Shown piece by piece: positions 28,084 through 29,609 of a stretch of 42,321 nucleotides of DNA. The DNA comes from a virus. Both the position numbers and the translations under genes were made by a program. The notes below the pieces were generated by a model. It did not search any database. It was given only the letters and a program-made list of their open reading frames with translations, and was not told where the DNA came from. The stretch covers positions 1-42,321 of the IMG/VR virus record IMGVR_UViG_3300045119_000234. One strand, given 5' to 3'. Within the stretch, counting starts at the first letter, position 1. Every line of letters begins with the position of its first letter.

Positions 28084-28647
28084 TCAATCAGGGAGCAATA
28101 GTTCTTCCCCGTTAATGATCAGCTTGAGTTCAACATCATCCGGCACCGTCAGCGACACCGCCACGCGCGGATTGAGCGTCGGTTCCAGGGCGCTCGCCAG
28201 CGCCTTGGCGGCGCCGCGCCAGTGACCGCCACCTTCGAGCGGCAGCTCCACCAGAAATGCGGGCTGATGCGACCCAGTCAGGAACGGCACGTCCGGGCGC
28301 GCCTGCGCGCGGCCATTGATCTGACCGCCGCCGCCGGCAACGGCTGCGGCCAGCGTAGCAGCCAGTTTCTCCTGCGCTGGTCCGTGATAGCCGACCAAGA
28401 CGCTGCCACTGTCCTGGCGGCGCTGGCAGCGGATCGCGATGTCGACCTCGCGCTGCATGCTGTTGTGCCAGTCAAGGAGGGTCTGCTCATATGCGCGCTG
28501 GTTTACTGAGGAGGTGCGGCCGAGCTGGTGAATAGCCACGCCGCGGCGATCGAGCGCCACCGCCAGCGCCACGGCGGCGCGCTGCGCCACCTCCGACGCC
28601 GGCTCGTCGTCGACCTCGCGCCAAGCTGATACGCAGACCCTCGGCAT
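28084..28647 (-). CDS. Degenerate amidase-like protein (pseudo-lysin)
   Basis: A 187-aa protein that aligns with the first 180 residues of the amidase encoded directly upstream: LDWHNSMQREVDIAIRCQR matches VNYHNSHSRDLDVSIHFNA, and INGRAQARPDVPFL matches INRGAKKRTDLFFL. However the zinc ligands are lost: the SSGHG histidine is replaced by Arg10 (SAWRE) and the IHFNA histidine by Arg73 (IRCQR); only the late catalytic-type Glu (Glu134, FLVELP) remains. It cannot be a zinc amidase, so it may regulate or partner the lysin, or bind peptidoglycan. The start shares one base with the amidase stop. It is the last gene of the late operon. Confidence 0.88.
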   Translation of the reverse strand: MPRVCVSAWREVDDEPASEVAQRAAVALAVALDRRGVAIHQLGRTSSVNQRAYEQTLLDWHNSMQREVDIAIRCQRRQDSGSVLVGYHGPAQEKLAATLAAAVAGGGGQINGRAQARPDVPFLTGSHQPAFLVELPLEGGGHWRGAAKALASALEPTLNPRVAVSLTVPDDVELKLIINGEELLLPD

Positions 28648-29609
28648 CAGTACGGCATCGTCACAGTGACCTCGTCGTCGGTCGTGATCCCGAGGTCCGC
28701 CATCAGCTGCGGCGACAGGTCGGCCACACGGTCAGTATCCTCGTGCGGGCCCCAGTCGGCCGGGAACGCCTCCAGCTCGATGCCGGTAAACGTCGCTCGC
28801 ACCATTACCGTGGTGTCGCGCAGGTCGTCCTTGGAGATACGGTCGTAGTCCCAGCGGCAGGCGATGTAGTGGACGTAAGGGTTCAAGCGTCGCGCAAGGC
28901 CGGTGGTGCCGCTCGGCTGGTACGGCAGGAACAGGTGCGGCGCCTGCTCGATGTCGCTGATGAAGGCGAGGCCCTCACTGGCGGACACGCCGGTGTCGTC
29001 CGGGCCGCCGAACGTCGAGGCGTTGCCGGTAATCTGCGATACCGTCGCCGGCGGACGCCCCGGCCGCTCCGGCAGCTCGACGCCGTCGCCCGCGCCGCCG
29101 AGCACGTCAGCGATGGCTGCGCAGATCGCCTCGAACTGCAGGCCGTAGATGTCGGTGTCGGCCTCGCTGTCGACGAAGCAGACCTCGATCAGGATCGCCG
29201 GCATCTCGGTGTTGTTGAGGAAGAACAGATCGGTGCGCTTCTTGGCGCCGCGGTTGATGAAGCCGCAGCCGGCGATCGCGGCCGAAACCTTACCGGCCAG
29301 CTCCGGCTGCGTGACGTAGAGCACTTCAACGCCCATCGGCTTCTCGACCTGTTCGTAGGCGTTGAAGTGTATTGAGACGTCCAGATCGCGGCTGTGCGAG
29401 TTGTGGTAGTTAACGATGGTGTTGAGGTTCTCGTTCTGAGAATGGCTGGTGTCGTCGTGGAACACGTGCACGGTGACGCCGCGGTCGCGCAGCTCATTAG
29501 CCAGCTCGGTGACGACGAGACGCGCCTCGTCGACCTCGTCAATGATGCCGGCGGCGCCGCGCACATACTTGCCGTGCCCGGACGAAATAACGATCCGATC
29601 GTAGGCCAT
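28647..29609 (-). CDS. N-acetylmuramoyl-L-alanine amidase endolysin
   Basis: A 320-aa lysin. Residues 1-175 are an Amidase_3 domain: zinc ligands His12 (ISSGHGKY), Glu28 (VDEARLV) and His81 (VSIHFNA), and catalytic Glu142 (ILIEVCFVDS). Residues about 195-320 form a second domain of double-psi beta-barrel or RlpA-like look (CRWDYDRIS, PADWGPHEDTDRVADLSPQL, then TVTMPY), probably for wall binding. It cleaves the stem peptide from glycan for host lysis. No signal peptide is visible, so holin-dependent release is expected from the small membrane gene just upstream. Confidence 0.92.
   Translation of the reverse strand: MAYDRIVISSGHGKYVRGAAGIIDEVDEARLVVTELANELRDRGVTVHVFHDDTSHSQNENLNTIVNYHNSHSRDLDVSIHFNAYEQVEKPMGVEVLYVTQPELAGKVSAAIAGCGFINRGAKKRTDLFFLNNTEMPAILIEVCFVDSEADTDIYGLQFEAICAAIADVLGGAGDGVELPERPGRPPATVSQITGNASTFGGPDDTGVSASEGLAFISDIEQAPHLFLPYQPSGTTGLARRLNPYVHYIACRWDYDRISKDDLRDTTVMVRATFTGIELEAFPADWGPHEDTDRVADLSPQLMADLGITTDDEVTVTMPY

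Follow-up and report, generated by a model that had tools for sequence, protein, structure and literature searches.

A degenerate Amidase_3-fold protein at the end of a phage late operon, possibly retained for its C-terminal tail

Why does a phage that encodes an intact amidase carry, directly behind it, a second amidase-like gene whose product has lost the zinc site, and for what could such a protein be kept? This question is raised by the late operon of an IMG/VR virus (record IMGVR_UViG_3300045119_000234), whose 42,321 bases were analysed in full and are referred to below as the window. The record carries a direct terminal repeat of 149 bases (positions 1-149 and 42173-42321; 147/149 identical), so that the phage genome is probably complete, and its terminase is 62% identical to the terminases of Rhizobium phage RHph_I3_18 and Bradyrhizobium phage ppBjS10J-1, a likeness that suggests an alphaproteobacterial host; the window phage and its relatives probably infect Gram-negative bacteria. 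Tandem repeats of 84 and 152-156 bases are present at 8684-9091, within a 365-aa late gene (8534-9631). The two open reading frames in question lie where the initial annotation placed them, and the features of the region are as follows:

27734..27898, plus strand: DUF3309 small membrane protein (Pfam DUF3309, 2e-6)
27993..28025, no strand: 14-bp GC-rich hairpin between convergent operons (fold z -2.3), a probable bidirectional terminator
28084..28647, minus strand: 187-aa protein with a degenerate Amidase_3 fold (P0001), encoded by the final gene of the late operon
28087..28173, minus strand: codons of a conserved 29-residue tail, NPRVAVSLTVPDDVELKLIINGEELLLPD, 72% identical in the homologue (dN/dS 0.12)
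28647..29609, minus strand: Amidase_3 endolysin, 320 aa (P0002), with all zinc ligands and no tail
29610..29822, minus strand: 70-aa protein with a single hydrophobic stretch, encoded immediately before the lysin and presumed from this position to be holin-like
29780..31126, minus strand: tail-fibre-like gene (phrog_24210 tail fiber, 4e-11), upstream, used as a synteny marker

The 320-aa protein P0002 is assigned to the active type of Amidase_3 endolysin by its matches to Pfam Amidase_3 (4e-24), phrog_435 endolysin (6e-53) and the PDB entry of PlyPSA (1xov; 5e-27). Its reading frame overlaps that of the 187-aa protein P0001 by one base, within the sequence TGATG. For P0001 the Pfam and PHROG searches gave no family match with a useful score, and searches of named phages, of plasmids and of about 85,000 prokaryote genomes returned no relative. 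By searching in full the contigs that carry the 80 nearest amidase loci, we identified one homologue, P0003, which Pfam Amidase_3 matches with 13 bits, under its cut-off of 27 bits. A second weak match (G037:7232-7417) was taken as chance because it lies within a 258-aa frame that overlaps a tail-fibre-like gene. The homologue and the gene preceding it are located as follows:

L083:9137-9712 (IMGVR_UViG_3300045240_000066, contig G004): P0003, 191 aa, 40-45% identical to P0001
L083:8970-9137: DUF3309 gene (Pfam DUF3309, 9e-10), directly upstream of the dead amidase in the late operon

Membership of P0001 in the Amidase_3 superfamily (PF01520) is indicated by both descent and predicted fold. P0001 and P0002 share 33% identity over 118 columns in BLASTP (57 bits, E 1e-14), and a hidden Markov model built from 68 phage amidases matches P0001 with 43 bits, so that its sequence homology to the Amidase_3 endolysins runs through the window amidase and the profile. 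The initial annotation had described this alignment as extending along the whole protein; homology was found over residues 20-134, while the last ~29 residues form a separate tail that is absent from P0002. Structure prediction, which the annotation had proposed, gave an amidase fold for the short protein. A profile-guided AlphaFold2 model (pLDDT 89, pTM 0.80) has PlyPSA as its best PDB match (TM 0.75, E 2e-12) and resembles CD27L (3qay) with a TM of 0.71. Since the profile-guided alignment was full of amidases, AlphaFold2 was rerun with an alignment of the two dead proteins alone; the resulting model was poor (pLDDT 51), and its top PDB match was again PlyPSA.

In contrast to the Amidase_3 endolysins that it resembles in predicted fold, P0001 lacks the zinc ligands and several other invariant residues. 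An active Amidase_3 amidase requires a His-Glu-His set of zinc ligands, and the residues concerned (viz. His12, Glu25, Glu28 and His81 in the numbering of P0002) are invariant in 53 aligned amidases; neither P0001 nor P0003 retains the set. The third ligand, His81, is replaced by Arg73 in P0001 and likewise by Arg in P0003, and Arg73 together with Arg76 is common to both dead proteins and present in 0/53 amidases. In the alignment judged best, P0001 lacks the loop that bears the first ligand, His12 (Trp10 and Arg11 lie near by), and Glu occupies this place in P0003; the second-ligand position (Glu25/28) is absent or ambiguous in P0001 and deleted in P0003. Hence, the substitution of Arg for both zinc-binding histidines, as first described, holds for the third ligand, while at the first the loop is missing instead. 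The late Glu that had also been noted as kept is indeed present in P0001 (E134), but it is Ala in P0003, which has lost more ligands than P0001; therefore E134 is no conserved feature of the dead protein. Asn83, another residue invariant in the 53 amidases, is lost as well, and an HN/RDxD segment and the amidase fold are kept. The two dead proteins have in common 19 residues that amidases seldom carry at those columns, which suggests that the domain was remodelled and did not change at random. With its zinc ligands lost, P0001 is catalytically dead by sequence criteria, as the initial annotation had concluded, and the loss of the zinc site extends to both known members, the homologue having retained no zinc centre that would speak for activity.

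The sister phage that encodes P0003 is syntenic with the window phage along the genome. Its gene order is tail fibre, 70-aa holin-like protein, DUF3309 small membrane protein and dead protein, and that of the window is tail fibre, holin-like protein, amidase and dead protein, with the DUF3309 gene on the facing, early-side operon; the holin-like proteins are 91% identical and the tail-fibre-like genes 89%. A scan with the 70-aa holin-like protein matched the sister phage only. The active amidase of the sister is 73-77% identical to the window amidase and lies about 14 kb from the dead gene, adjoining the terminase genes on the opposite strand, and the dead gene occupies the same site in both phages; therefore the pair is not conserved, and what is conserved is a dead gene that closes the late operon. 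In both phages one TGATG contains the stop codon of the preceding gene and, overlapping it, the start codon of the dead gene, and the preceding gene is a different one in each. A conserved operon of amidase and paralogue was accordingly rejected, for none of the 80 amidase relatives has an adjacent degenerate domain (0/80), and the search for the same gene pair in other phages, which had been suggested as a check, returned it neither in the sister nor in these relatives. A DUF3309 gene is also present in RHph_I3_18, beside the terminase. A 63-aa ORF of the window (22484-22675, plus strand) is 98% identical to one in the sister phage (L084:4576-4764), where it stands at a different place and is surrounded by less similar genes; it may represent either a recent transfer or a mobile small gene.

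The nucleotide difference between the two dead genes is 44%, and both of their frames are open, an outcome reached in 0.5% of runs of a neutral simulation (P about 0.005). All indels between them (6/6) are in frame, and the gene of P0001 has a coding-like GC content by codon position (0.76/0.48/0.78) in an intact frame. The dN/dS of the pair, estimated by NG86 with a codon bootstrap from two genes that are near saturation, is 0.45 (0.29-0.67) for the whole gene, 0.55 (0.35-0.80) for the core and 0.12 (0.02-0.41) for the tail, taken as the last 29 codons; identity between the proteins is 38% in the core and 72% in the tail. Neither frame lesions nor a dN/dS near 1 are thus observed, and the frame is unbroken in the one close relative. 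These results bear out the statement of the initial annotation that the gene is not a decaying pseudogene, a state which its sequence makes unlikely.

The tail, the most strongly constrained part of the dead protein, recurs apart from it. A model derived from the two dead proteins only, with which sister phages found through their helicase were searched, matched short ORFs by the tail alone (E 5e-6 to 4e-4) in 6 contigs (G085, G092, G094, G096, G097, which has two, and G098):

L156-L161 and L105: stand-alone tail-protein family, ~80 aa, 53 aa in L105

Most of these proteins are 80-85 aa long and are encoded in the late region, close upstream of the terminase gene, and most of their genes are preceded by one whose 67-aa product has two hydrophobic stretches. 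The tail in L105 makes up a 53-aa ORF adjoining a small membrane protein. The one stand-alone protein that was tested had no Pfam or PHROG match. A phage that carries a stand-alone tail protein also encodes a 998-aa late protein (L164:1813-4806), in the interior of which residues 337-458 form a Phage_lysozyme domain (Pfam, 5e-9), the only lysin domain in ten ORFs scanned. The tail NPRVAVSLTVPDDVELKLIINGEELLLPD of the dead protein is in addition resembled by the C-terminus PRVYVNIETTAGVEVGISINGEPVLVDD of an active amidase in outgroup phages. When a model of the tail was run against 35,743 ORFs, this outgroup amidase was the best match after the stand-alone proteins (E 0.13), a match that is weak alone and leans also on C-terminal position and synteny. 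Weaker copies of the tail are located at the end of the L066 amidase and at the end of the L126 GH25 lysin (Pfam GH25, 1e-31), and a 32-aa tail query in named phages gave chance-level matches only (E 3-9). The tail is missing from both of the active amidases that occur together with a dead protein, and no dead companion was seen in the contigs with tail-bearing amidases. Of the Amidase_3 phages examined, most lack both the tail and the dead protein, and therefore neither is generally needed for lysis.

The outgroup phages are informative about the likely source of the dead gene. In the same neighbourhood, two of them (L073 and L080) have in succession a tail fibre-type gene, a protein with one transmembrane stretch and a single active, tail-bearing amidase of about 363 aa; L070 and L074 carry an amidase of the same type. 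In addition to the tail, the N-terminal ICLSAG and DWHNS segments are similar between the outgroup amidase and the dead proteins. The shared site, the tail and the N-terminal likeness favour descent from a resident tail-bearing amidase as the most likely origin, and tandem duplication of the phage's own amidase, though unsupported, would be a possible origin as well. In a phylogenetic tree the two dead proteins form one clade (99/99) with very long branches, and AU tests accepted every sister group tried (viz. the window amidase, the tail-bearing amidases and L041/L034), so that the tree does not discriminate which amidase is sister. A scan with the tail-bearing amidases found no intermediates. 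Between lysin and helicase, on the opposite strand, L034, L041, L073 and L080 encode, next to the lysis genes, a protein of 209-272 aa that has what looks like a signal peptide and, at its C-terminus, a PEP-CTERM-like sorting motif.

We tentatively favour, with a confidence that falls slightly short of even, the interpretation that P0001 is a former endolysin which has been retained in the lysis cassette as an accessory without catalysis, mainly on account of its C-terminal tail, an interpretation based on the two known dead members. The ancestor would have had a single tail-bearing Amidase_3 endolysin at the end of the late operon. Wall cutting would have passed to another amidase gene, one without the tail and with a variable genome position; catalysis in the resident protein would have been lost after, or together with, the arrival of this gene, and the zinc centre before the split of the window phage and its sister. 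The dead copy would then have been retained in the lysis cassette, with the short tail as its most constrained part. As cousins carry the tail either on an active lysin or as a ~80-aa protein encoded after a small membrane protein, we infer for it a function in interaction or targeting, directed at the small membrane protein, at the envelope or at the lysin, and such an element could be supplied either in cis or in trans; gene order is what points to the small membrane protein or the envelope as its binding partner.

The main rival to this accessory role of the tail is that the dead amidase domain is a regulator, which pairs with the active amidase or its substrate site and inhibits or activates that enzyme, in the way that inactive LytM proteins act on host amidases and truncated endolysin isoforms on the full-length form. 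Both genomes with a dead protein also encode an active Amidase_3, so a partnership of the two in trans is possible, and the retained fold with its HN/RDxD segment, the 19 shared residues, a core dN/dS below 1 and the precedents of DipM (PMC10336132) and CTP1L (PMC4777826) are all consistent with regulation. We regard it as unlikely, for the dead gene and the amidase are apart in the sister phage, the core diverges much faster than the tail, and tails exist without any amidase domain. The dedicated pair of amidase and inhibitor or activator that the initial annotation envisaged does not fit an adjacency that is absent from the sister and the 80 relatives, nor a constraint that is strongest on the tail. 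Alternatively, the gene could be without function, the remnant of an endolysin that has been replaced and is being lost, present for now by chance, as the small number of known members, the divergent core and the deleted active-site loops might indicate. The open frames at such nucleotide divergence, the in-frame indels, the dN/dS values of core and tail, and a TGATG coupling kept with two different upstream genes make this quite unlikely.

Two further explanations were considered. Binding of muropeptides is a property of the amidase fold that can outlast the loss of zinc, as the non-catalytic PGRPs show. On this precedent P0001 could bind peptidoglycan without hydrolysing it and protect its host cell against superinfecting phages or lysis from without, but neither a signal peptide nor a membrane stretch can be recognised in its sequence, its late-operon position speaks against early protection and the invariant Asn83 is lost; we consider this explanation very unlikely. 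Least probable of all is a virion or other non-lysis protein with a recruited amidase fold, for which membership of the late operon near the tail-fibre gene could be cited; against it, the window phage and its sister both encode the protein behind the holin-like gene, and the tail is like those of lysins.

Precedents exist for parts of this arrangement, and a phage system combining them was not found in our literature searches, which returned nothing on point for inactive phage amidase paralogues and so agree with the initial annotation, whose author knew of no described phage system of this kind. Among the PDB matches to the fold of the P0001 model are the complexes LytH-ActH (7tj4) and CwlD-GerS (7rag), Amidase_3 enzymes that work with a non-catalytic partner. 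The partners ActH and GerS are not amidase-like, unlike the dead protein described here. In two-polypeptide endolysins a non-catalytic partner arises from an internal start (CTP1L, PMC4777826; LysP7951 and others, PMC9430671), and these systems resemble the present one in having a non-catalytic product beside an active lysin. They differ in that both chains come from one lysin gene, whereas here a separate gene encodes a degenerate catalytic domain, the tail is absent from the active lysin of the same phage and the phages probably infect Gram-negatives. Inactive LytM-domain regulators control host cell-wall hydrolases (DipM, PMC10336132; EnvC/ActS, PMC8360153), and P0001 may be analogous to them in its mode of action only, as a dead hydrolase fold that possibly controls an amidase; those regulators are host proteins of the LAS metallopeptidase fold with a degenerate LytM domain and a known interaction, whereas the predicted fold of P0001 is that of Amidase_3.

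Phage pseudoenzymes in lysis cassettes are hardly described, and the present case advises caution in annotation, in that the zinc ligands should be checked before Amidase_3-like genes are annotated as endolysins. If it acts in lysis, the dead protein also points to a small C-terminal module that is found on lysins and as a free protein. A broader proposal, which we offer as a possibility on the unlikely side, is that this tail is an undescribed lysis-accessory module with three carriers (viz. active lysins, to which it is fused, a free ~80-aa protein and a dead lysin), and that the dead amidase supplies it in trans, where it would dock a horizontally replaced endolysin to a small membrane protein. 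If the dead protein does act in lysis, a phage that swaps its endolysin would keep the accessory function of the old one.
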